Part shown: one piece after another, positions 14,813-28,366 of the stretch
Layout: each line of letters begins with the position of its first letter
How positions within the stretch are numbered: the stretch's first letter is position 1
NCBI GenBank assembly: GCA_024280215.1
Contig: JAJRQO010000036.1
Location: forward strand, 62,001-126,000
Reading direction: 5' to 3'
Origin: Candidatus Zixiibacteriota bacterium
Lineage (GTDB): Bacteria; Zixibacteria; MSB-5A5; GN15; FEB-12
Length of the DNA: 64,000 nt
Notes under the pieces: generated by a model
The model's database searches: none
What the model saw: only the letters and a program-made list of their open reading frames with translations
Told to the model about the DNA's origin: nothing
Position numbers and translations under genes: made by a program

Positions 14813-17800
14813 TTACTTCAACAAAACCATCTTTCTGGTGTCGCTGAACTCTCCAGCCCTCAGACGATAGAAATACACCCCAGAGGCGTACTTAGAGGCA
14901 TCCCACTCTATTTCTATGAAACCTGCTTCTGAATTATCTTCGAACCTATCAACTACCTGTCCTAAAAGATTATAAACTACTAATTCCCAATCAGACGCAA
15001 TCGGTAAGCCAAAACTAATATTAGTAGTTGGGTTAAATGGGTTCGGATAGTTTTGTGACAGTTCAAAGTAATCAGGTAAACTTTCTAATTTTGCAGTCAT
15101 GATATATCCATCATAACTACCAACATCAATTTCAGAAATTTTATTATGTCCGTTAAGTTTCAACAACTCGCCCTCGGCTAAACTTGCTTTACCATCAAGT
15201 GAATAAATAATGACTTTAGTAAACTCACCATCGTAGTCATAATTGATATTCATCTTAGTCGCATCGCCGATCAACTCAGGTCGGGCATCTCCCTCAATTG
15301 TAAGAGATACCGCACCAATCTTATCATCAGCTTTAGAGATGACCAGTTGACCATTTTGAACGATGAACTCGGCTTCGGCATTATAGTTAGCAACACGCTT
15401 GGCATATGGAAGAGCGTCACCAACAATGACTCTGACTAAGTAAACTAAATCAGCAACTGAAAGTGACAAGCCATCTTTGTTGACATCTGAAGCAGCAATC
15501 TGTCCCTCAACATTTTGAGTAAAGACTGAGAGTCCATAAACAAAATAGTTTGAGTAGAGAACGGCATCGGCAATTTCGTAAGAGATTTCGTTGAGATTAA
15601 TGTCGCCAACAGCATCAATAGAATCTGCACAGACGATGTCGATTCCACCATTGGTGAAGTCAACACAACGAATCGGCATTTTTCCTGGTTCACCACCACC
15701 AACCATACAGTCATCATGGGCACCATAGTAGCCAGGGAAGCCATAAGAGTTATCAGTAATAATATTTCCCTCAAGACCAAAGACATCACGAGACATCCAA
15801 AGAGTGTCCCCGAGACGTGATGAAAGGGTATTATCTCCACAGTCAAACCAGAAGAAGTTAATAGCTGCGTATTGACATTCAAGTGTTCTATCATTTGAAA
15901 CTAAGAAATCAACTTGTGCAATATCGCCAACGACAGATGCCATAAAGCAGTCAGGATGGTAGCCACCATTGTTTGTTTCTGCGATTCCGACAATTCTTAA
16001 GACACCTGTTGGACAACCAGTACCGCAATTTCCGTTTGGTCCCATTCGATAGGTAAAGTACTCCCATCCACAATCAGTAAAGAGATCACCAGGGCGAACA
16101 TCGCCAACACTTAATGCCGATTGATCATAGCCAATTGTAACATCAAAACCACCGATTTCCTTAGTAGAACCATCATAGTATATTTTGACTGTTTCATATT
16201 GTCCTTGGAACGTAGCATGTGTTTTGTCGATTTGAAGTAGGAAGCATTCGTCAATTTGAATAGTAATACAAATATCTCTTGTGACAAGTTGACCACAATC
16301 ATCAGACGCTGTAATGGTAAAGCAATATTCTCCAGAGGAATCAGCGACGAAACAAACCTGATCGGCAAGCTGGTCATAGGTTCCAGGAGCAGTAACAGTA
16401 ACAGATGTCATGTTTGTATCTACATCATACGATGATACATCAAAACAGACTTCACCTGGGTCATCAAGATAGACAACAAAACTTGGTGGAACATCTAAGC
16501 TTGGTGGATTGTTATAATCGACAACAACATTGACCGTGTCAAAACTTTCTGCTCCGCAAACATCAACAGCCTTTACAATAAAGCGATAGCTCTGTCCGTC
16601 GGATGCTGTTGGTGTGAAGCAAATTTCATTGGTAGAAGTGTTAAGAGTTCCATTAGTAGTAATCAGTTGAACAAAATCAAGATTATTATTTTGGTCAGAA
16701 TATGTAATCGGTAAACATATTTCTTCGACAGCACATAAGAACTGTGTGAAATCATCACCCGCATCGACAACAGGAGCATCATTGAGCTCAAGTGTAACGC
16801 TGAATGAATCAATACAAGCGGCACCACATGAATCAAGACACATAATTTTCACCATGACAGATTGATCAGATGTTGGAGTATAGACCCATTCATTGCCAAT
16901 AATAGAACCAGGCCCAGCCAAAATCTCACAATGATCAAAATTGTCATCAACATCGCTTGCACTTAAAGGTAATCGAATTTCAGTAGGAGAACACTGGAAC
17001 AAGGTTGTGTCGTTTGGAATATTACATATAGGTGGAGAATTAAGACCGACAGTATACTGAACAGTATCTTCATCATAAAGGCCACATACATCAACAGCTC
17101 TAAGAATAAAAGTATAAACACCGATAGTGTCTGGTGTGAAACAGATTGTCGAACTGTTATAGGTTCCAACAGCAGTTGTAATATATATGGAATCAATATT
17201 TGCATCAATATCGGTAACTGAAACACCCCAACAAAGTTGAGAATTGTCACACAAGAAGATAGAATCATCAACACCCGCATTAACAATAGGAGCATCATTA
17301 AATTCAACTATCACATTAAGAGAATCAATACCAGTCGCACCGCAAGAATCGGTAACTTGCATAACAAGAAGATACGTACCCGAAGTATCAGGAGTAAAGC
17401 AAACGGTACTATCAACGGTATTAAGTATACCCAATGGTGTGAGTAGTGATACTGAGCTGATATTATTATCAACATCAGATGTTGAATAATCAAAACAGAG
17501 AGTCGTACCTGAACACAACTGAACAGTATTGTTATTTACTGAAGCAACCGCAGCACCAGCATTTAATGGAATATTTCCAATTGTTATTAACGGTGCAGAA
17601 TTTATATCGACATTGTAAGTTAAACTAAGAGTATCCGAGGCACCACAAGAATCTGTGACGACACCAACAACAGAGTAGCTTGTAGTTGCGTTGATAGTAT
17701 ACATATTGTTAGAAGCATTAAAACACCAGAGACCAGTCGGTGAAACAGTACCATCACCAGAAAGTCTTGACCAAATAAGCGTCCCCCCGTTAACATCTGT

Positions 17801-20800
17801 TGCAGTAAACTGATAGCAAATTTGATCAGCAGCACAGAGAAAAGTATCAATTGCTGTTGATGCAAATGCTGCTTGCCCCGCAGGGTCATCAGCTATAGGT
17901 GCATCGTTGATGACAACATCAACAACAATGACGCATGAGTCAGAACCACAAGCGGTGGTTGCCACGACAGAAATTTCATAATGACCTGATGTGTCTGCTG
18001 GGAAACAAATATTCCCTGCTTGGTAAGAACCAAATGGAGAAACTGTAACCGAAACATCGGCACCATTGATACCTACTGGAATACAAATTGAATCAGCTTC
18101 ACATATAAAGAGAGACTGTGTTGATGGACAACTAATTGTCGCACCAGTTCCTATCGTTACATTAAAGACAACATTACAACTGTCCGAGCCACAAGATTCA
18201 TCGGCAATTAAAGTAATTGTGTAGATTCCAGATGTATCAGCAGTGAAGCAAAGTTCTCCCCCTGTATAGGTTCCAAATGAAGCCGTTACAATTGCTGTGG
18301 CTGGTTGAATGTCAATCATTTGACAAACGACATCAGCAGCACAAAGATTTATATCAATAGTATCGGTTGGACATGCGATGATTGCCGACTCACCAAAGTC
18401 GACCAACATAACAACAGTATCAAGTGCTGACGCTCCGCATGAATCAATAACTTGAATTATGAATTCATATGAGCCCGCAGTCGTTGGTGTGTAACAAATT
18501 TGATTAGTAGTAGTATCGATAGTACCAAAGCCTGAGACCATCAGTTCGGTCATGCCAAGCAAACCATCAGCATCGGTGGCAGTATAACTGACACACAAAG
18601 ATGTCGGAGAGCAGAGCAAAGTATCAGGAGCAGGGGCAAACTGAACGGTTGGTGTAGAATTTAATTCTACGGTTATAACAACTGTATCTATTGTTGAAAC
18701 ACCACAAGCATCAGTTGCTTCTAAAATAAATTGGTAGTCACCAGAAGTGGTAGGAGTAAAACAGATAGTGCTACCATTATATAAACCATTACCAGTAAAA
18801 GTAAATCCAGATAAGTTATTGTCAATATCAGAGATTGAAGCATTGAGACAAATTTCCTGTGCTTGACAGAGATTAATTGTTTGATTCGATTCTAAGTTTA
18901 CAATAGGAGCGGAATTAATTGTTACCATTACCATGGCAGTATCAACTGAAGATGCACCACAATCATCAGTGACATTTAGAATAAATGTATACATACCAGA
19001 TGTGTCAGGCGTGAAACAAACTTGATTGTTTACTTCATCAAGTGTTCCAACAGCAGTCAACAAGGTAACAGTTTTCGCCTGTGGGTCATTTGGGTCAGAA
19101 ACCGAATAGTCAAGGCATAGTTCAACTGAATTACAAAGGAATTGATCAGTTGTCGTTGCGAATGAAATTGTTGGATCCTGATTAATTTTGAATTCAACCG
19201 AGAAGGTCGACTGACAAACTGCTCCACATGAATCTACGCACTCGACGGTTACTGTCACTACCTGACTTGCGGTTGGCGTATAGCACCAATTACCACCAGA
19301 GATTGAACCAGGACCTGAAACAATCGTACAGAAATCTAAATTATTATCAATATCGGAACCTGACAGAGGCAAACAAACTGGAGCAAGAGTACATTGGCTG
19401 AGAATAGTATCAGCAGGAACGTTACATATTGGATCTGTGTTTAAGGTCACTGTAACAAGCAGAGTATCGGTAGATGTCAAACCACAATCATCGGTCGCTT
19501 CTAAAATAAAAGTATAGATACCAGATGAATCAGGAGTGAAACAGATAGAAGTACCATTATATATACCGATCATTGACGTCAAGTTAGTTGATGTTAGGTT
19601 ACCATCACTATCTGAAGAGGATGCAGGAACGCAAATCTCAGCAGGAGTACATTGGAATATGGTTTGGTCAATACCAGCATCGACTGTTGGAGCATTGTTT
19701 AAATCAACACAAATAATAAGTGTATCAAAAGCTTCCAAACCACAGTCATCAACAGCACGGAAAATAAATTCATAACAGAAATTAGAGTCAGGAGTAAAAC
19801 AAAGTTCGCCAGCGTTGAAAGTTCCGACACCTTCTGTCATTTCAAGAAGGGTCATATTACCATCGGTGTCAGTTGCTGTTATTGTCTGACAAATTTCTGT
19901 TGGTAGGCATTGGAAAAGAATTTGGTCAGCACCCGCATCAACTATCGGAGCAACGTTTAAAGTAACAGTAATATTAACGGTATCAATTGCTTCAAGACCA
20001 CATTCGTCAGTTACTCGAGCAATAAACTGGTAGGTACCAGTTGTGTTCGGATAGAAACATATTTGCGAATTCATCGTGTCAACAACACCATTACCAACAA
20101 GCAAATCAATTCCTGAAATATTATTATCTATATCAGAAGACAGATATGGTACACAAACTGATTGTGAAACACAGAGCGTAACAGTAGTATCATTGGCAAT
20201 TGTAATCAATGGTGCAGAATTTAATGTAACATTGTACGTCATGCTAACGGTATCAACAGCACCGCATGAATCAGCAACAACAGCCGAAACGACGTAGCTT
20301 CCAGCACCTGATGAGGTAAAGCAGAATTGACCACTTGATGAGACTGTTCCAATACCAGAAAGTTTTGACCATGTCAGTGCAGAACCATCGGCATCATTGG
20401 CAACCAGCTGATAACAGAGAGATTGGTTGTCGCATAAGAAAGTGTCAATAATCGCAGGTGGGTCAACAGCAATAGGGGCAGAATTTAGAACAACATCGAC
20501 AATAACGATACAGGTATCTGAACCACAAGCGGTAACTGCGATAACTTCTAATTCATAATGTCCAGATGTATCAGCAGGGAAACAAATATTACCAGACTGA
20601 TAAGAACCTATTGGCGAAACAGAAACAGAAACATCCGAGCCGTTTACACCAACGGGAATACAAATAGAATCAGATTCGCAGATAAATATATTTTGAGGAG
20701 CAGGACAAGAAATTTGTGCGGCAGATCCGATAATTACTTCAAAAACAATTTCGCATGTATCCGAACCGCAAGATTCGTCGGCTATAATAGAGGCAGTATA

Positions 20801-23800
20801 AATTCCAGACGTATCAGCAAAGAAACAAAGCTCACCATTAGCATAGGTTCCAAGCGACGTACTAACAACTGCAGACAGAGGAGAAATCCCTATCAATTGA
20901 CAGATAGAATCAGCAGCACAAAGATTCACGACGATTGTATCAATCGGACAACTGATTGTCGCTAACTCACCAAGTGCGACGGAAACATTTATTGTATCAA
21001 GGCCAGTTGTACCACATGAGTCGGTAACGGACATAATAAACTGATATGAACCAGCTGATGATGGAACAAAACAGATTTGGTTAAGCAGAGTATCTAAAGT
21101 TCCAAATCCAGAAAGCATCGCTTCGGTTAAACCATTGGCACCTTGGATGTCAGAGACAGCATAGTCAAGACAGATTTGCTCGTTCAAACATAAAGAAACC
21201 GATGTATCAGCACCAAGTGCCATAAGCGGTGTGTCGTTTATTATAATATTAAAAGTTTTCGATGTTGTGTCAGCAAGTCCGCATGAATCAGTCACTACCG
21301 CAGAAAGAGTAAAGCTTCCATTGGCTATTGGAGTAAAACACCAAAGACCATCAGTTGTAATAGTACCATCAGAACCAGCAAGCATAGTCCATGTCAAAGT
21401 TCCGCTATCTACGTCAGACGCTGAGAATTGATAACAAACTTGTTCTGATTGACAAAGGAATTTATCAAAAGGGGAAGCTGGGTCAACAGCGATTGGAGCA
21501 GAATTTATTGTAATGTCATAATAGGTTGTAATTGTATCAGCTGAACCACATGGATATGTCACAGCAATAACCGCTTCAATAATTCCTGTACCTGAAGGAG
21601 TAAAACAGTAGTTCCCAGAAGTTGTTACAGAACCAACACCACTAATAAGCGACCATGTCAAAGAATCACTATCAGCATCAGTTGCTACAAGCTGAGTACA
21701 AAGTTGAGTTGTATCGCAGAGGAATAAAGTTACCGAATCAGGTTGAGTTGCTATTGGAGCATTATTTACATTGACAGAGACAACAACAGTATCGTAATCA
21801 TCAGCACCACATGTATCAACAGCATGAATTATGAAAGTATAATCACCAGCAGATGCTGGTGTGAAACAAACTTGATTACCAGTTAAGGTACCGACTCCAG
21901 AAACAAGTTCTGTAAGAGCTAAATCGTTATCAGCATCAGAGAAATTTACTCCAAAACATATTTCAGAGAGAGTACATAAATTTTGTGTGAAGTCATTGCC
22001 AGCATTAGCAACTGGAGGATTACCCTTGGTAATTGTAACCAGCATTGTATCAGAACCAACTGAACCACAAGTATCTGTAACGCTGACTATAATTTCATAA
22101 ACTCCTGCCGTATCTGGTGTAAAGCATAATTCTGAGCCAGCTGTAGATTGAGTAACTCGGGCAGCTATTGCGTCAATTTCTAAAGATGATGACTGACAAA
22201 CAATATGAACCATATTGTAAATTATTCCATCGGGTAAATCAATATATGTTCCACCATCACCCGAACCAGCCATTCCAGCTATAAAGCTTTTATTAACAGA
22301 GAATACAACACTATCATCTAACAAAAAGTTGAAATCAGCGTTTCCCCCACCGTCTGTATTTGTAAAAACAACAAAATCCGAATTAGATGCATAACAAGAT
22401 GCTATATATTGTTTAAAGCCTATGACACAATAATCTCCTGAAACAAATGTAATAGAACCATCGCCGTCACCACCGTCCGGTCCACCTGAACCAGGTAGAG
22501 TATATGTCATGTCAGTTGGAGATGATAGCATATAAAATGGTGAGTTTCCAAAAGTTGAATCAGTTGAAAATGTTCCATAATCAGCAATCGAATCAGCAAA
22601 AATAAAGTCTGGCAAGAGCACACTTACTCCCGAAAGTGAATTTAGAGGTAAAACAAAATCAGCGGATGTCAATAAGACAGTACCAGGGGAACCACCACCA
22701 ACTTGTGTTACAGTTCCACCAAGATTATTTATCGAAGCTAATTGATCATACCCATAAATTGAACCAGTAAAAGAGCCTATGTTTGTAGAAACAGAAGTAA
22801 TGTCACAGTCGACATCATTTATTGTGACAGGTAAACAAATTTGTTCAGACATACATTGGAAATAGGTTGTGTCAAATGGTAATTCAATAGTAGGTGCTGA
22901 ACTTATTGTGACATAAAAAGTAACTTCCATTGTATCATCATCGTCGTCATCATCATGGTCATCGTCATCATCGTTTACTGAGAAAACTATAGTATACTCA
23001 CCAGATGTATCAGGATAAAATTCAAAATAACAATAAGCAGGTGAAGTACTGTTGTCGCAAATAATTGAACCAGGACCTGAAAAAAGAAAAACAGAAAGAG
23101 AATCATCATCGTCTGGATCAGTGACAGTGATTGTATCAATAATACTTTCGCCGGCACAAATCACATAGCTTCTATCACAGTTATCTTCATCTTCATCATC
23201 TTCATCATCGTCATCGTCATCATCTTCTTCATCGTCATCGTCATGGTCATCCCCCTCATCTTCATCCTCACAACGCACAAAATTCGGTGGATTAGCAGGT
23301 GGACAAAACATCGTCGCAAATTGAATTCCGTTGGCATCATATGCATACGAACCACTATACATATCTCCGTAAGAGGTACCAGGAGAGATTAAACCATTTT
23401 TATTATATGTTGCTCCTGGAAGAATTTTAGTAGTAAAGACACTTGTGTTTGGATCATTTTCGGGATTATTAAACTGATACTGGTCTGTAATCCCAGAATA
23501 TGTATCTGAAAAACCAGGTACATCTGATAAAGGAATCATATCATCACCGAGATAAACTTGAGTCTCATCAAAAGGTACATCATGTCCTGACGACCAGATA
23601 TTGAAATCAATAGCACACCCAGCGACTTCTACCCCGAGTGTATCTCGAAAGTCACCTGTATCTTTTTTCTTGGCATAATCTATGGTAATATCCCACCAAA
23701 TTTCATATAGATTTGGTGCGATACTATCTGGCCATCTAACCCAACCCCATCTATCATTTTGTTTGAGATCATTTGATAGTTCAAACCCTTTACTCCAGAT

Positions 23801-24145
23801 ATTCACATTTGGAGCAGGTGGTTGCGAGAGGTTTACCAAAATTGAACCGTGGAATTGTTCTAATGATTTTCCTCTTGAGTAAAGGAAATTAGTAATATAC
23901 CACTTACCTTCAGAAGTGTCACTGAAGATATAAAACCCACCAGCATCATTAGTAAGTGGATCAGGCAAATTTGGAACACCCTGAAAATATGATGAATCGA
24001 TTAAATTATAATTTGGAGGAGATCCAGGTGGAATATTATCATATGGATTATAAAATGATGGAGAAAGAATTGGCTCATCTTGAGCAAAACCAACGCTTGC
24101 GATCAACAACAATACTACAAACAGAATGCAATTTTTTTTTATCAT
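14813..24145 (-). CDS. Giant secreted cysteine-patterned repeat protein with cohesin/dockerin-like region and sorting tail
   Basis: 3,110 residues from the ATG at 24145 (MIKKNCILFVVLLLIASVGFA signal; a start five codons earlier is possible). Order: unique N-terminal region to about 290; a Cys-flanked Asp/Glu tract (about 295-328); about 24 Ig/cadherin-like repeats of about 85-95 residues (to about 2,640); a cohesin-like segment (IGGFDVTIGYDQSALSVGDV); a dockerin-type calcium pair (DINLNEISYEIADAVLYSNY, SDVNKDGLSLSVADLVYLV); a second cohesin-like segment; and a type IX-like sorting tail (SQNYPNPFNPTT ... GVYFYRLRAGEF). The usual repeat pattern is LCxxxxIC ... xCFTPxxSGxYxF ... DxCGxxxxDT, four Cys each. 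The second repeat carries an insertion of about 170 residues. Probably an extracellular or cell-surface fibre exported over the outer membrane. Ligand unknown. The spacer upstream shows no clear promoter. Confidence 0.9.
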   Translation of the reverse strand: MIKKNCILFVVLLLIASVGFAQDEPILSPSFYNPYDNIPPGSPPNYNLIDSSYFQGVPNLPDPLTNDAGGFYIFSDTSEGKWYITNFLYSRGKSLEQFHGSILVNLSQPPAPNVNIWSKGFELSNDLKQNDRWGWVRWPDSIAPNLYEIWWDITIDYAKKKDTGDFRDTLGVEVAGCAIDFNIWSSGHDVPFDETQVYLGDDMIPLSDVPGFSDTYSGITDQYQFNNPENDPNTSVFTTKILPGATYNKNGLISPGTSYGDMYSGSYAYDANGIQFATMFCPPANPPNFVRCEDEDEGDDHDDDDEEDDDDDDDEDDEDEDNCDRSYVICAGESIIDTITVTDPDDDDSLSVFLFSGPGSIICDNSTSPAYCYFEFYPDTSGEYTIVFSVNDDDDDHDDDDDDDTMEVTFYVTISSAPTIELPFDTTYFQCMSEQICLPVTINDVDCDITSVSTNIGSFTGSIYGYDQLASINNLGGTVTQVGGGSPGTVLLTSADFVLPLNSLSGVSVLLPDFIFADSIADYGTFSTDSTFGNSPFYMLSSPTDMTYTLPGSGGPDGGDGDGSITFVSGDYCVIGFKQYIASCYASNSDFVVFTNTDGGGNADFNFLLDDSVVFSVNKSFIAGMAGSGDGGTYIDLPDGIIYNMVHIVCQSSSLEIDAIAARVTQSTAGSELCFTPDTAGVYEIIVSVTDTCGSVGSDTMLVTITKGNPPVANAGNDFTQNLCTLSEICFGVNFSDADNDLALTELVSGVGTLTGNQVCFTPASAGDYTFIIHAVDTCGADDYDTVVVSVNVNNAPIATQPDSVTLFLCDTTQLCTQLVATDADSDSLTWSLISGVGSVTTSGNYCFTPSGTGIIEAVIAVTYPCGSADTITTYYDITINSAPIAVDPASPFDKFLCQSEQVCYQFSASDVDSGTLTWTMLAGSDGTITTDGLWCFTPIANGSFTLSAVVTDSCGLADTTSKTFNIIINDTPLMALGADTSVSLCLNEQICLDYAVSDIQGANGLTEAMLSGFGTLDTLLNQICFVPSSAGSYQFIMSVTDSCGTTGLDTINVSVALGELATISCPIDTIVVNLCAADSICQLIGISPLSAVVSTSLGTYANGELCFFADTSGIYTASIIADESCGSDTCEIVFEVIIGSAAQISCPAPQNIFICESDSICIPVGVNGSDVSVSVSPIGSYQSGNICFPADTSGHYELEVIAVTACGSDTCIVIVDVVLNSAPIAVDPPAIIDTFLCDNQSLCYQLVANDADGSALTWSKLSGIGTVSSSGQFCFTSSGAGSYVVSAVVADSCGAVDTVSMTYNVTLNSAPLITIANDTTVTLCVSQSVCVPYLSSDIDNNISGIDLLVGNGVVDTMNSQICFYPNTTGTYQFIARVTDECGLEAIDTVNITVTLNVAPIVDAGADQILFQCLPTEICQTITATDTDGNMTLLEMTEGVGTFNAGELCFTPDSNFCYEFIFRAVDDCGLEAFDTLIICVDLNNAPTVDAGIDQTIFQCTPAEICVPASSSDSDGNLTSTNLTSMIGIYNGTSICFTPDSSGIYTFILEATDDCGLTSTDTLLVTVTLNTDPICNVPADTILSQCTLAPVCLPLSGSDIDNNLDFCTIVSGPGSISGGNWCYTPTASQVVTVTVECVDSCGAVCQSTFSVEFKINQDPTISFATTTDQFLCNSVELCLDYSVSDPNDPQAKTVTLLTAVGTLDEVNNQVCFTPDTSGMYTFILNVTDDCGASSVDTAMVMVTINSAPIVNLESNQTINLCQAQEICLNASISDIDNNLSGFTFTGNGLYNGSTICFTPTTSGDYQFILEATDACGVSTIDTVVITVELNSTPTVQFAPAPDTLLCSPTSLCVSYTATDADGLLGMTELMVSGFGTIDTTTNQICYTPTTAGSYEFIIQVIDSCGASALDTVVMLVDFGESAIIACPTDTIDINLCAADVVCQMIDIQPATAIVTASFGTYTGGELCFTADTSGIYTITLIADESCGSDSCNVVFNVTIGTGATISCPSTQSLFICEADSICIPVGINGADVSVTVSPFGSYQAGNICFPADTSGHYEISVVATTACGSDSCVIVVDVVINDAPIADDPAGQAAFASTAIDTFLCAADQICYQFTATDVNGGTLIWSRLSGDGTVSPTGLWCFNASNNMYTINATTSYSVVGVVTDSCGASDTLSLTYNVDINSAPLITIGNIPLNAGAAVASVNNNTVQLCSGTTLCFDYSTSDVDNNISSVSLLTPLGILNTVDSTVCFTPDTSGTYLLVMQVTDSCGATGIDSLNVIVEFNDAPIVNAGVDDSIFLCDNSQLCWGVSVTDIDANIDSIYITTAVGTYNSSTICFTPDTIGVYTFILRAVDVCGLYDEDTVQYTVGLNSPPICNIPNDTTLFQCSPTEIRLPLSASDVDDNFDHCEILAGPGSIIGNEWVYTPTSDQSVMVKIMCLDSCGAACIDSFSVTLELNDAPVVDAGDDFTQFLCAVEEICLPITYSDQNNNLDFVQLITTNGTLNTSTNEICFTPTASDGQSYRFIVKAVDVCGAESFDTVNVVVDYNNPPSLDVPPSFVVYLDDPGEVCFDVSSYDVDTNMTSVTVTAPGTYDQLADQVCFVADSSGEYCFTITASDDCGQLVTRDICITIQIDECFLLQIDKTHATFQGQYETVKIYYDGSTKEIGGFDVTIGYDQSALSVGDVRPGDLFTDCGWEYFTYRMGPNGNCGTGCPTGVLRIVGIAETNNGGYHPDCFMASVVGDIAQVDFLVSNDRTLECQYAAINFFWFDCGDNTLSSRLGDTLWMSRDVFGLEGNIITDNSYGFPGYYGAHDDCMVGGGEPGKMPIRCVDFTNGGIDIVCADSIDAVGDINLNEISYEIADAVLYSNYFVYGLSVFTQNVEGQIAASDVNKDGLSLSVADLVYLVRVIVGDALPYAKRVANYNAEAEFIVQNGQLVISKADDKIGAVSLTIEGDARPELIGDATKMNINYDYDGEFTKVIIYSLDGKASLAEGELLKLNGHNKISEIDVGSYDGYIMTAKLESLPDYFELSQNYPNPFNPTTNISFGLPIASDWELVVYNLLGQVVDRFEDNSEAGFIEIEWDASKYASGVYFYRLRAGEFSDTRKMVLLK
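17860..21240 (-). repeat. Internal block duplication within the giant gene
   Basis: Repeats 6-10 (starting TPLMALGAD, ELATISCPID, SAAQISCPAP, APIAVDPP, APLITIAND) recur in the same order as repeats 16-20 (TPTVQFAP, ESAIIACPTD, TGATISCPST, APIADDPA, APLITIGN). The order continues with VDAG- and CN(V/I)P-type repeats. The offset is ten repeats, about 2.6 kb. The coordinates span the first block (about 21.2-20.4 kb) to the end of the distinctive second-block pair (about 17.9 kb). The CGSDTC/CGSDSC pair is diagnostic. Confidence 0.8.
22933..22972 (-). repeat. Asp-codon tract (GAT/GAC) in the first repeat
   Basis: Encodes NDDDDDHDDDDDDDTMEV, standing where the other repeats have the DxCGxxxxDT loop. 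Trinucleotide tracts of this kind can change length in frame. Confidence 0.8.
23176..23271 (-). repeat. Asp/Glu-codon tract between two cysteines
   Basis: About 32 residues that are almost all Asp and Glu, with Cys at each end (RCEDEDEGDD ... EDEDNC). It separates the unique N-terminal region from the repeat array and may be a calcium-binding hinge. Confidence 0.85.
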
Positions 24146-24494: not shown

Positions 24495-26840
24495 TTACTG
24501 CTTAACTTTTGCTAAAACCGATTCAAATGGGTTCAAGATAATTTTTCTCGGACGATTTGAAAGTCCTGGAATTTCAAAGCTGTAATCTTTGGAATCAACA
24601 AGAATGCGTATATACGCTTTACTATCTTTACCAAACTGGATTTCTAATGGAAGATACATTTTAAAATTATCAGGAACCCCTTTTGTCGTTATACGACACT
24701 TCACATCAAGCAGTTTAGTAGAGTCATTATGAATGATATCATATGTAAAATTATATTCGGGAAGATAATTATTATAAACCCATTGGTCAAAAAACCAATC
24801 AAGCTCGATGCCAACATATTTTTCAGCAATTCTCTTAAAATCCTGAGTAGAAACATCTTTGCCACGATAGGTACCATAAAACTCTCGCATCATTGCCAGA
24901 AATTTATCTTCGTTCATTGTTTTTAAGTCAATCATCAAATTTCTCAACATGTGAAGGACAAATGCTGATTTTTCATACACAATCAGACCATAATCACCCC
25001 TTGTTTTAGTACTTGAAGTACGATAACCCATCGCAATCGGACCTGCCTCCCCACCAGAGGAAAAGATATATTTGCGAACAGAGAAAATATTATTTCGGGA
25101 TTCTTTTAATTTCTTGAGAAATTTTTTATTATCTGTTATCACCTGAAAATATAACAACGCTGAATATTCAGCAAACCCCTCCGATAACCATTGGTCATGA
25201 TAAGTTTCGTACCCAACGCCAACACCCCACCATTGATGAGCGACTTCATGAGCTCGAAAAAGCCTATCATTTCCCCATGCATCAGTATTTATCCATGTAT
25301 TAAAACCAAGATGTACAAAACCTGGAAAGGCTTCCCCATGCGATGCCAGTATTTCACTCACCGACAATTTTGGGAGAGCATACGGACCAAAGTAATGTTT
25401 AAAAACTCGAAGTGAGTTCTGTATATCCTCAGCAACTTGTTTTTCCATATCTTTCCCTATACCAATCATTAAATCTTGCGACAGATAGTTGGCAATATCC
25501 GCATGTAATTCTTTGGAATAAAAGATTTCGACAGGTACTATATCATCTTCTTCAAATTTATATTTTTTCATATATCCAAGGTTAAAAGAAATATTTGCAG
25601 CGGCTTGACTGACAGTCCATTCAGTAAAAAGAGTATCTCCTATTTTACTTTCATTTTGCAAACTACCGCATGATGTAAAAGTATATCTTCGGTCTGTTTT
25701 AAATTTTAAATCATAGGTAGCCCTATCACGCCACCCGTATTTTGGATACCAATTTGAACCCGCAAAAAGATATAGCTCACCAAAGTCATACTCGGCGACT
25801 TTACCGTGATAATAAAATATTAAATTTAACGTATCACCATAGAGATACTCTTCATTGAGAAAAAGTGCAATTTGCCTTGTCTCCCAATTTTTAAAAGTCA
25901 TATCAAGTTTCCCACGGTAATAATCTATCATCTTCCCTTGAATATTTTTTATTGAATCGATAACTAAAGATGGAAGTATTGAAAATTGGACAAGCTGCAA
26001 CGGACCCGAGAGAACCTTCGCTTTCACTTTTGCTTCACTAACAATGACCCCTTTGTAATTGATTCGAGTACTAATATCATAGTGCAATATATCAAGCTGT
26101 GCTTTCTTACGACCATTAATATTAGTATAGCTTTCATCAATATTATATTGTGAGTAACTGTTGACTAACTCCGAAAATGAATTACCTGGCTCCCAGTATT
26201 TTTTCCAAAACCGAATCTCTTCCCGTAAGTACGGATTAAACTGATACATTATTTTATAGTCATTTTTTGGTTCTAAACAAGTAAGAAAATACGGACGTCC
26301 AAAAGGGCTGGTAAGGTTTCGCATCAACTCAAAGGAAAACAAAAAGTCAGATTCTTGTTTAATTTCAGAATGAAGCTTCCTCATCTTTTTTGTATTACTA
26401 TTATCAAATTTTAAATCTGACAATTGTAACATTTTTAGCAATGAGTCATACATCGAAGGAGCAAAAAAGAAAATCGCTGAGTTGATCTCTTCATCAAGGG
26501 AATCTTTATGGTAAAAACGATTAAGCTGGTCACGCTCCATCTGAACAGATGGGCGAAAAAGCAGACTGCCATTCCCTTCAAAATATCCACCATAGACAAC
26601 CGAATCACCATTGATAACAATCGGATCAAAAAATGCTATCCGACCTGTACCCATGATGAGTGCAAAATCGTGATGAAATATCGTATCGGACGAGACTTTG
26701 TATGTTTTGTTTATATTCAACAATGGATAATATAGTTGTTGGTGTAGTTCTGAAAAATCTTGTGAGTTATATGCATTTGGTGAACTATTGCTCAATACGA
26801 GAAGAATGAAAATTGCGAAAAGATATTTTTTTATTTTCAA
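24495..26840 (-). CDS. M1-family zinc aminopeptidase, exported
   Basis: 781 residues with an N-terminal hydrophobic signal (YLFAIFILLVLSNSSPNAY). The zinc site HEVAHQWWGVGVGYETYHDQ with the following WLSEGFAEY (HExxH plus 18 residues plus Glu) lies near residue 530. The substrate-side motif that reads GAMEN in typical M1 enzymes is here around SHGEAFPGFVHLGF, so exopeptidase specificity may differ. A long N-terminal half (residues 30-260) precedes the M1 domain and is not recognised. It ends in a beta domain (FEIPGLSNRPRKIILNPFES). Likely periplasmic or surface peptide digestion. Next downstream on this strand is the giant gene; upstream is an M48 protease. Confidence 0.85.
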   Translation of the reverse strand: MKIKKYLFAIFILLVLSNSSPNAYNSQDFSELHQQLYYPLLNINKTYKVSSDTIFHHDFALIMGTGRIAFFDPIVINGDSVVYGGYFEGNGSLLFRPSVQMERDQLNRFYHKDSLDEEINSAIFFFAPSMYDSLLKMLQLSDLKFDNSNTKKMRKLHSEIKQESDFLFSFELMRNLTSPFGRPYFLTCLEPKNDYKIMYQFNPYLREEIRFWKKYWEPGNSFSELVNSYSQYNIDESYTNINGRKKAQLDILHYDISTRINYKGVIVSEAKVKAKVLSGPLQLVQFSILPSLVIDSIKNIQGKMIDYYRGKLDMTFKNWETRQIALFLNEEYLYGDTLNLIFYYHGKVAEYDFGELYLFAGSNWYPKYGWRDRATYDLKFKTDRRYTFTSCGSLQNESKIGDTLFTEWTVSQAAANISFNLGYMKKYKFEEDDIVPVEIFYSKELHADIANYLSQDLMIGIGKDMEKQVAEDIQNSLRVFKHYFGPYALPKLSVSEILASHGEAFPGFVHLGFNTWINTDAWGNDRLFRAHEVAHQWWGVGVGYETYHDQWLSEGFAEYSALLYFQVITDNKKFLKKLKESRNNIFSVRKYIFSSGGEAGPIAMGYRTSSTKTRGDYGLIVYEKSAFVLHMLRNLMIDLKTMNEDKFLAMMREFYGTYRGKDVSTQDFKRIAEKYVGIELDWFFDQWVYNNYLPEYNFTYDIIHNDSTKLLDVKCRITTKGVPDNFKMYLPLEIQFGKDSKAYIRILVDSKDYSFEIPGLSNRPRKIILNPFESVLAKVKQ

Positions 26841-26874
26841 TGTATGCTCCCGAATAAATTTTTATTGCGTTGTT

Positions 26875-28134
26875 TTACTTACGATATTGTCTAACAAATT
26901 CCATCCTATCCTGTAAAGATGGATGTGAATGAAACCAAAAAACTATAAAGGGATGAGGGTTTGGATCGGCAAGATTATAGACAGAAAGTTTGTCAAATGC
27001 TGAGGCAGCCTCTTCCCCGTCTACATCTGTTACTTCCATACCATAGATATCGGACTGATGTTCATGGTATCGACTCAACGAATTTATAACTGGATTAAAC
27101 ATAAACATAATAAATGACATGTAAATAATTAGAAGTGGTAATGATGCATGGTCAGACAATGAATCAAATTTCAATCTTGATTTAAACCTATCTATAAATT
27201 TTTGTATTGTCAATCCTGTTAACCAGAGTGCCAGTGCCAAAACAATAATTATAACTATCAATGTTTTCCAAATATGGTTCATGACATAGTGCCCCATTTC
27301 ATGCCCCATTACAAATTTAATTTCATTTGTAGTAAAATGATTTATCAAATTATCAGTTAGCACTATCCGTTTAGAATTAAACATACCTGTCACATAGGCG
27401 TTTATCTTTGAAGACTGTTTTGATGTGTTCACCTGAAAAATATCTGAGCCTTCAATACCAGCCTTTTCTGCTAAGGAATGTATCTCACTTTTTAATTCTT
27501 TATTTTCTAAATCAATAAAATCATTAAACAAAGGGGAAATAAAAATCGGAGCCAATACAATCATGATAACAATAAATGGTATCGCTCCAATAGTAAATTT
27601 GAGCCACCAGTATTTTGTCGCTTTAATTAATTTATATAAAAAGAAAATCGGGACTATCATAAGAAGCATATTTATCCCTAAACCGAGTAAATCTTCTGAG
27701 AACCATTCGATAAAAGTTTGGTTCATAAATCCAAATTCTCCTTCGACTAAAAAACTTCTATACACATGGAACGGTAACAATAAAATATACTCTAATGCCA
27801 AAAAGAGAACTATAAATCCCCAAAGTGCGAAAAACTTATTCGGGATTTTTTCGGCATAGGTGCGAAGTTTTGCTGATAAACCTGTAAAGAGAATCAGAAA
27901 CAGAATAATAATTGAAATAATAAAATCGGTAAACCGCCAAATATTATTAAAAAGTGAATAGGATGTGAGTTTTTCTTTTCGTTCTAAAGACATCGGATAA
28001 ATAGAGTTTGACTGTGTTGCTACTGAATCTATTTGAGCATCAACTACTAAAGGTGTTTCAACAACTGAAGAGTCAGCGGCATATAAAACAGTGGAACAAC
28101 ATAACATCAATATAATAATAACAATATTCTTCAT
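26875..28134 (-). CDS. M48-family integral membrane metalloprotease (Ste24/HtpX type)
   Basis: 419 residues from the ATG at 28134 (MKNIVIIILMLCCSTVLYA); the longer start at 28164 adds ten residues before the signal. Several membrane segments lie at residues 60-210 (FTDFIISIIILFLILFTGL, NMLLMIVPIFFLYKLI, IGAIPFIVIMIVLAPIFI). The zinc motif is FVMGHEMGHYVMNHIW (about residue 275), followed by two more membrane segments and the third zinc ligand region EHQSDIYGMEV. The layout follows CAAX protease 1/Ste24 rather than the shorter HtpX. In bacteria such enzymes act in membrane-protein quality control. It lies 34 bases upstream of the M1 gene on the same strand, so they may be co-transcribed. Confidence 0.85.
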   Translation of the reverse strand: MKNIVIIILMLCCSTVLYAADSSVVETPLVVDAQIDSVATQSNSIYPMSLERKEKLTSYSLFNNIWRFTDFIISIIILFLILFTGLSAKLRTYAEKIPNKFFALWGFIVLFLALEYILLLPFHVYRSFLVEGEFGFMNQTFIEWFSEDLLGLGINMLLMIVPIFFLYKLIKATKYWWLKFTIGAIPFIVIMIVLAPIFISPLFNDFIDLENKELKSEIHSLAEKAGIEGSDIFQVNTSKQSSKINAYVTGMFNSKRIVLTDNLINHFTTNEIKFVMGHEMGHYVMNHIWKTLIVIIIVLALALWLTGLTIQKFIDRFKSRLKFDSLSDHASLPLLIIYMSFIMFMFNPVINSLSRYHEHQSDIYGMEVTDVDGEEAASAFDKLSVYNLADPNPHPFIVFWFHSHPSLQDRMEFVRQYRK

Positions 28135-28366
28135 CTTTATCTCTATTCTACATGATAGAAACACAATATCATATATTTAAACATTTAAGTCAACAATACT
28201 GATAAGTGAATTTTACTATTTTCTATTTTACTATACCTGTCAAACAGCCTTGTCTCATGTTTTTCGAGACTCAAGAAAATATGTTGTAATCCGTTGTCTT
28301 TCATTTTGTTCTATCGCTATTGCTGAAAAAACTTGCCAAAATCGAATAATCAAGTATAATATCTAT

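Follow-up and report, generated by a model that had tools for sequence, protein, structure and literature searches.

The giant repeat protein encoded on the minus strand of the window (the whole stretch of DNA that was analyzed, 64,000 nucleotides) is probably a fiber exported by the type IX secretion system (T9SS), with 24 Ig/PKD/cadherin-like domains stapled joint by joint. The probability given to this reading is about 0.87. Covariation of cysteines among related repeats provides strong statistical evidence that every domain would be disulfide-tied to the next along the 24-domain chain. The double cysteine loss in repeat 22 would remove only the internal bond between strands B and E, and the staples to repeats 21 and 23 would remain, as would the additional pairs at columns 8-80 and 40-72.

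Layout of the protein

The ORF contains, in order, a signal-like peptide, an Asp/Glu-rich tract, 24 repeats with up to four main cysteines each (C1-C4), a cohesin-like region and a type A T9SS sorting domain (Table 1). Homologues of the giant protein occur in many Zixibacteria genomes as open frames of about 2000-4400 aa, and the repeat family was matched in 115 of the 132 genomes of the phylum that were searched. The repeat count of 24 comes from a profile built on the protein's own repeats; the same search found repeat 2 split in two by an insert. The insert (repeat 2, window 22063-22900) is about 200 aa long and has three cysteines (578, 589, 655), and in relatives the second or third repeat is likewise split at this position. 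Besides the Asp/Glu-rich tract, window 22883-23269 has a second poly-Asp run in repeat 1, where C4 is missing. The two ORFs immediately upstream on this strand (24495-28164) look peptidase-like; one has HEVAHQWW and the other HEMGHYV.

The whole protein is matched by the Pfam profile Big_9 (118.6 bits against a cut-off of 23.6, E = 2.3e-34), by K319L-like PKD (63.3 bits against 27, E = 2.1e-17) and by PKD_4 (47.4 bits against 27). Taken singly, repeats 13, 14 and 22 score below the cut-offs of the Ig-like and PKD profiles. HYR does not appear among the profile matches of the whole protein or of single repeats; the C0-C5 pair (columns 10-81) may resemble the HYR cysteines. The region after the array scores 19.6 bits against the Cohesin cut-off of 24.1 in the Pfam search of the whole protein and is not assigned to that family. 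This region is conserved among homologues and was the query in the contig scan for relatives.

Table 1. Features of the giant repeat protein, in window coordinates
Feature	Position	Strand	Basis or remark
Giant, predicted secreted repeat protein, 3115 aa	14813..24160	-	ORF
Putative N-terminal signal peptide MIKKNCILFVVLLLIASVGFA	24083..24145	-	translation read by eye; assumes start at internal Met6
Asp/Glu-rich tract directly before repeat 1	23180..23269	-	translation read by eye
Array of 24 Ig/PKD/cadherin-like repeats, ~86 aa each	16247..23176	-	profile search, Pfam, AF2
Repeat 1: C1 kept, C2, C3 and C4 absent; array start	22883..23176	-	
Repeat 13: C1-C4 all present, with extra pairs (columns 8-80, 40-72)	19163..19447	-	
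Repeat 22: C2 to Arg, C3 to Val; C1, C4 and extra pairs kept	16763..17044	-	
Repeat 24: C1 to Asp, C4 kept; array end; extra pair 67-85	16247..16513	-	
Cohesin-like domain after array	15821..16246 (end approximate)	-	Pfam Cohesin E = 0.0011, below cut-off
Type IX secretion C-terminal sorting domain	14825..15049	-	Por_Secre_tail 2.7e-9, TIGR04183 3.4e-12
C1 of repeat 22, C2390	16991..16993	-	inferred partner: C4 of repeat 23 (C2535)
C2 position of repeat 22, R2396	16973..16975	-	
C3 position of repeat 22, V2426	16883..16885	-	
C4 of repeat 22, C2445	16826..16828	-	inferred partner: C1 of repeat 21 (C2304)
C1 of repeat 21, C2304	17249..17251	-	
C4 of repeat 23, C2535	16556..16558	-	
Extra Cys, column 8 of repeat 22, C2379	17024..17026	-	probable pair with C2449; 8-80 covariation
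Extra Cys, column 80 of repeat 22, C2449	16814..16816	-	covariation
Extra Cys, column 40 of repeat 22, C2411	16928..16930	-	probable pair with C2441; 40-72 covariation
Extra Cys, column 72 of repeat 22, C2441	16838..16840	-	covariation

Cysteine pairs within and between domains

Repeat 22 was originally noted to lack C2 and C3 while retaining C1 and C4. This is confirmed, with R2396 (EIRLPL) and V2426 (EWVYTP) at the C2 and C3 sites and with C2390 and C2445 present. Repeat 13, named as its intact sister, has all four cysteines (C1590, C1596, C1626 and C1645). Repeat 22 had been placed at 16860-17040; the location holds approximately, but the repeat comprises aa 2373-2466 and its C4 is just outside that span. 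Four further cysteines (2379, 2411, 2441, 2449), absent from the earlier description, are common to repeats 22 and 13. The same two cysteines, C2 and C3, are missing from repeat 1, so the array contains more than one such case. Non-Cys residues occupy both sites in 19 of 19 aligned segments of repeat 22 orthologues (R/V, S/V, I/K, Q/V and T/S, among others); the double loss is ancestral.

For the analysis of covariation, 1354 repeats from relatives were aligned on one profile, of which 1305 are readable in all four columns. Among these, 1090 have both C2 and C3, 0 have C2 alone, 3 have C3 alone and 212 have neither. In the same order, the counts are 688/0/1/139 after reduction to 60% identity (Fisher 7e-160), 162/0/1/55 in independent loci, where the pooled tables took in non-Cys repeat proteins, and 172/2/2/62 in other families of the phylum. 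Three cases of C3 without C2 are fragments of the insert-split repeat 2 and three are genuine (L086, L070, L071). The covariation, replicated in independent loci, strongly supports the C2-C3 disulfide of the original prediction, which would be an intradomain cross-strand bridge from strand B to strand E. Single losses in relatives, proposed at the time as a check on this bond, are rare (3 of 1305) and not common.

Other cysteine columns also covary in pairs (10-81, 67-85, 8-80, 44-69, 30-40 and 40-72), with counts of 31/1/3/727 for columns 8-80 (p = 1e-50) and p = 1e-24 for columns 40-72. Loss of C2/C3 is commoner in repeats with 8-80 or 40-72 (odds ratios of 6.8 and 7.9, to which the repeat 22 orthologues contribute much). 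From this behavior, the covarying cysteine pairs are presumably disulfides.

The partner of C1 appears to be the C4 of the following repeat. The counts for C1(n) and C4(n+1) are 1214/1/2/7 (p = 4e-16), with 163/1/1/5 in independent loci restricted to Cys arrays (p = 3e-8) and 201/1/6/6 in families outside the order (p = 5e-8); all of the Fisher p-values given here, that for C2-C3 included, overstate independence because many repeats are related by descent. The offset test covered 98 arrays and about 1900 repeats. An offset of +1 gave 18 joint losses against 0.35 expected and was the only offset enriched. When losses were shuffled within arrays, the mean was 1.3 and the maximum 7 in 20000 trials. 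The joint-loss events fall into 7 sequence clusters. Offsets 0, -1 and 2 gave one joint loss each, against 2.2, 2.1 and 0.4 expected; the opposite staple, C4(n) with C1(n+1), which corresponds to offset -1, was rejected (p = 0.69).

The positions of the losses also follow the joints. Internally, a repeat that has lost C1 is followed by one that has lost C4. First repeats usually keep C1 and lack C4, and most C4 losses are found there; last repeats of the window's subfamily keep C4 and lack C1, and most C1 losses are in last repeats. In arrays with C1 in the last repeat, the next domain carries additional cysteines (xCDVC), and in several arrays with C4 in the first detected repeat, a preceding degenerate domain has a C1-like cysteine and no C4. 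Exceptions are nine cases in which C1 is lost and the next C4 kept, and two to three of the reverse, some of them at contig edges or gap positions.

The protein of the window has exactly 23 C1 (repeats 1-23) and 23 C4 (repeats 2-24). In all, 55 pairs take up 110 of its 131 cysteines. Seven cysteines in the array region fall outside these pairs (328, 368, 377, 452, 578, 589 and 655), all of them located in repeat 1 or shortly ahead of it, or else in repeat 2 with its insert. L196 and L192, two arrays from other families, have almost no C2/C3 and keep C1 and C4, which makes the staple the more conserved of the two elements.

Domain topology and proposed load path

The positions of the cysteines in the fold were obtained from AF2 models of repeats 21-23 and 12-14, with alignments of window and named-locus sequences, and from mean-field coevolution of 1399 adjacent repeat pairs. 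The models have a pLDDT of 97 (linkers about 98) and a pTM of 0.78, and their strands A, A', B, C, D, E, F and G are those of a seven-stranded beta sandwich. The first model places C1 after A' (13-17), C2 within B (23-26), C3 within E (52-55) and C4 in the turn between F (61-71) and G (76-87). The top intradomain coupling is 25-57 (z 36), which together with 23-59 recovers the B-E pairing, and the F-G hairpin is recovered by 71-81, 69-83, 67-85 and 65-87, which puts C4 at the hairpin tip. Couplings 26-86 and 58-86/88 put C2/C3 level with the end of strand G, and the AF2 secondary structure is consistent with the couplings. This suggests that C4 and C1-C3 occupy opposite ends of the sandwich, separated by about ten strand residues, or 30 A. 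Since C1 lies beyond A' at the bottom and C4 in the F-G turn at the top, each domain would be stapled to the next. The top interdomain coupling is 19(n)-76(n+1), with z 12.9, or 4.0 with Cys left out. Couplings from linker N91 to D32 and D74 of the following domain point to a putative cadherin-like calcium site.

In the original prediction C2-C3 and C1-C4 were both intradomain disulfides, giving one lock per domain. C1 and C4 are both near-universal (in 1293 and 1287 of the 1354 rows) and repeat 22 retains both, as such bonds would have it; however, losses of C1 and C4 in the same repeat are independent (1190/44/9/1, p = 0.31; 1 joint loss against 2.2 expected). Non-Cys repeat proteins in the pool made the two look associated, and this was gone when the data were restricted to Cys arrays. 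First repeats with C1 and no C4, and last repeats with C4 and no C1, also argue against a bond within the repeat, as does the location of the F-G turn and the A'-B loop at opposite ends of the sandwich. The C1-C4 half of the prediction is therefore not upheld, and it is very improbable that both bonds are intradomain.

It is also unlikely that C1(n) and C4(n+1) adjoin and hold a metal ion at the joint with no disulfide. The joint has a conserved linker Asn, DxDGN and D74, mutually coupled as in a cadherin-like calcium site, and known disulfide oxidases were not found in the genomes searched, but calcium would be served by oxygen ligands and not by Cys, the strict pairwise gain and loss of Cys at several column pairs is the behavior of disulfides, and the protein appears to be exported. 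The paired C1/C4 losses could instead be an artefact of degenerate terminal repeats plus one inherited internal event. Although the Asp that replaces C1 in last repeats is inherited within the window's subfamily and five internal cases are one orthologous event, the terminal repeats lose C1 and C4 asymmetrically and in opposite senses, the internal events are in 7 clusters across different families and only offset +1 is enriched. The chance that the pattern is such an artefact is very small.

In the preferred stapled fiber, C2 in strand B and C3 in strand E would form a cross-strand disulfide inside each domain, and C1, which follows strand A' at the lower end of domain n, would bond to the C4 that sits in the F-G turn of domain n+1, at its upper end. 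Staple n would overlap staple n+1, shortcutting the domain cores. The shortest covalent route would alternate staples with segments of 31 residues, each of which starts at C4(n+1), passes through strand G, the linker and strand A and ends at C1(n+2), so that the order along a covalent track would be strand A, staple, strand G, linker, strand A. The C4(n)-C1(n+1) spacing is 31 (5-95% range 30-32) and the repeat period is 86 (80-94); overlapping staples would thus leave 31 residues of covalent load path for every two domains. Typical figures for Ig-like domains are about 0.36 nm per residue and roughly 9 nm for two folded domains. Two domains may then contribute a load path of about 11 nm, compared with roughly 9 nm in the folded state and about 62 nm if there were no staples. 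With the staples closed and a load path of 31 residues, the fiber should be nearly inextensible. The protein could be a stiff, nearly inextensible surface rod, folded and oxidized outside the cytoplasm. Instead of the mechanical lock per domain that was first proposed, each joint would have a lock, with a further, optional one inside each domain. The odds are somewhat better than even that giant fibers across the phylum have overlapping interdomain disulfides at every joint, which would form two interleaved covalent tracks, let force bypass the domain cores and prevent appreciable lengthening even if all domains unfold.

Export, known systems and significance

The type A T9SS sorting domain scores 46.2 bits with TIGR04183 (cut-off 23) and 37.6 bits with Por_Secre_tail (cut-off 27). 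SprA was found in 20 of the 21 genomes searched, with a match of 2.9e-17 in the source genome (G000), consistent with a T9SS cargo. The source genome, with an assembly size of 3.0 Mb, has 45 matches to the T9SS sorting domain, so this genome would encode many T9SS cargos, the giant protein among them. Another giant repeat locus in this genome (L061, G000:C38:79430-86935) has 29 repeats in one 3164-aa frame with a T9SS tail, and many of its repeats lack C2/C3. One orthologue (L041, G003:C86) is interrupted, with two open frames of 1602 and 1538 aa and one in-frame TAA, which is either a sequencing error or a pseudogene.

The original prediction implied that the array folds in an oxidizing place. 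The paired cysteine losses, the signal peptide and the T9SS tail support this indirectly, whereas no known disulfide-forming enzyme was found in the source genome. VKOR was found in 0 of 21 genomes searched, DsbB in 0 of 13 and DsbA-type thioredoxin folds in 1 of 13. Genomes with no VKOR or DsbB matches still encode proteins with more than 100 apparently paired cysteines.

Tandem PKD/Big_9 arrays (KIAA0319L PKD, collagenase ColH PKD, chitodextrinase PKD) share sequence homology with the window repeats, in which C4 falls on DxxG, the PKD F-G turn motif, when the two are aligned. Unlike the window array, the aligned sequences of solved PKD structures have no Cys at C1-C4, and therefore no staple. 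The best structural match over three domains end to end is to cadherin/protocadherin EC domains (VIA Z 11.7, rmsd 5.0, 259 aligned), and the coupling of a linker Asn with DxD-type acidic residues at the joint is cadherin-like. Among Pfam cadherin families only Cadherin_5 matched, in one repeat and at 14.8 bits against a cut-off of 26.5, so the similarity is of fold only. Cadherin joints are stiffened by calcium and not by disulfides. In titin, many adhesins and other tandem Ig arrays, extension comes from the unfolding of domains.

In MAG (Siglec), the disulfide C37-C165 joins two successive Ig domains and restricts flexibility (PMC5150538). This Ig1-Ig2 disulfide is at one of four joints, whereas the window array would have one at all 23 joints. 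In the Sel1-like repeats of Helicobacter Hcp, disulfides link the end of a repeat with the beginning of its successor (PMC3851747). Hcp is an alpha-helical solenoid of packed repeats and its tether joins adjacent chain ends; in contrast, the window array has beta-sandwich beads and its staples would be an overlapping shortcut across about 140 residues. The window protein shares its type A sorting tail with T9SS-exported surface proteins, and SprA is present. No described beta-sandwich array (bacterial Ig/PKD) stapled at every joint was found in the literature searched, of which coverage was incomplete.

The apparent lack of known disulfide-forming enzymes raises the question of the oxidant for more than 100 cysteines per protein. 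With about 1900 repeats of one fold in which several cysteine pairs were naturally gained and lost, the arrays also offer a clean data set on disulfide evolution. If all joints are stapled and the load path keeps a constant length, such an array would represent a different route to mechanical strength at the bacterial surface.
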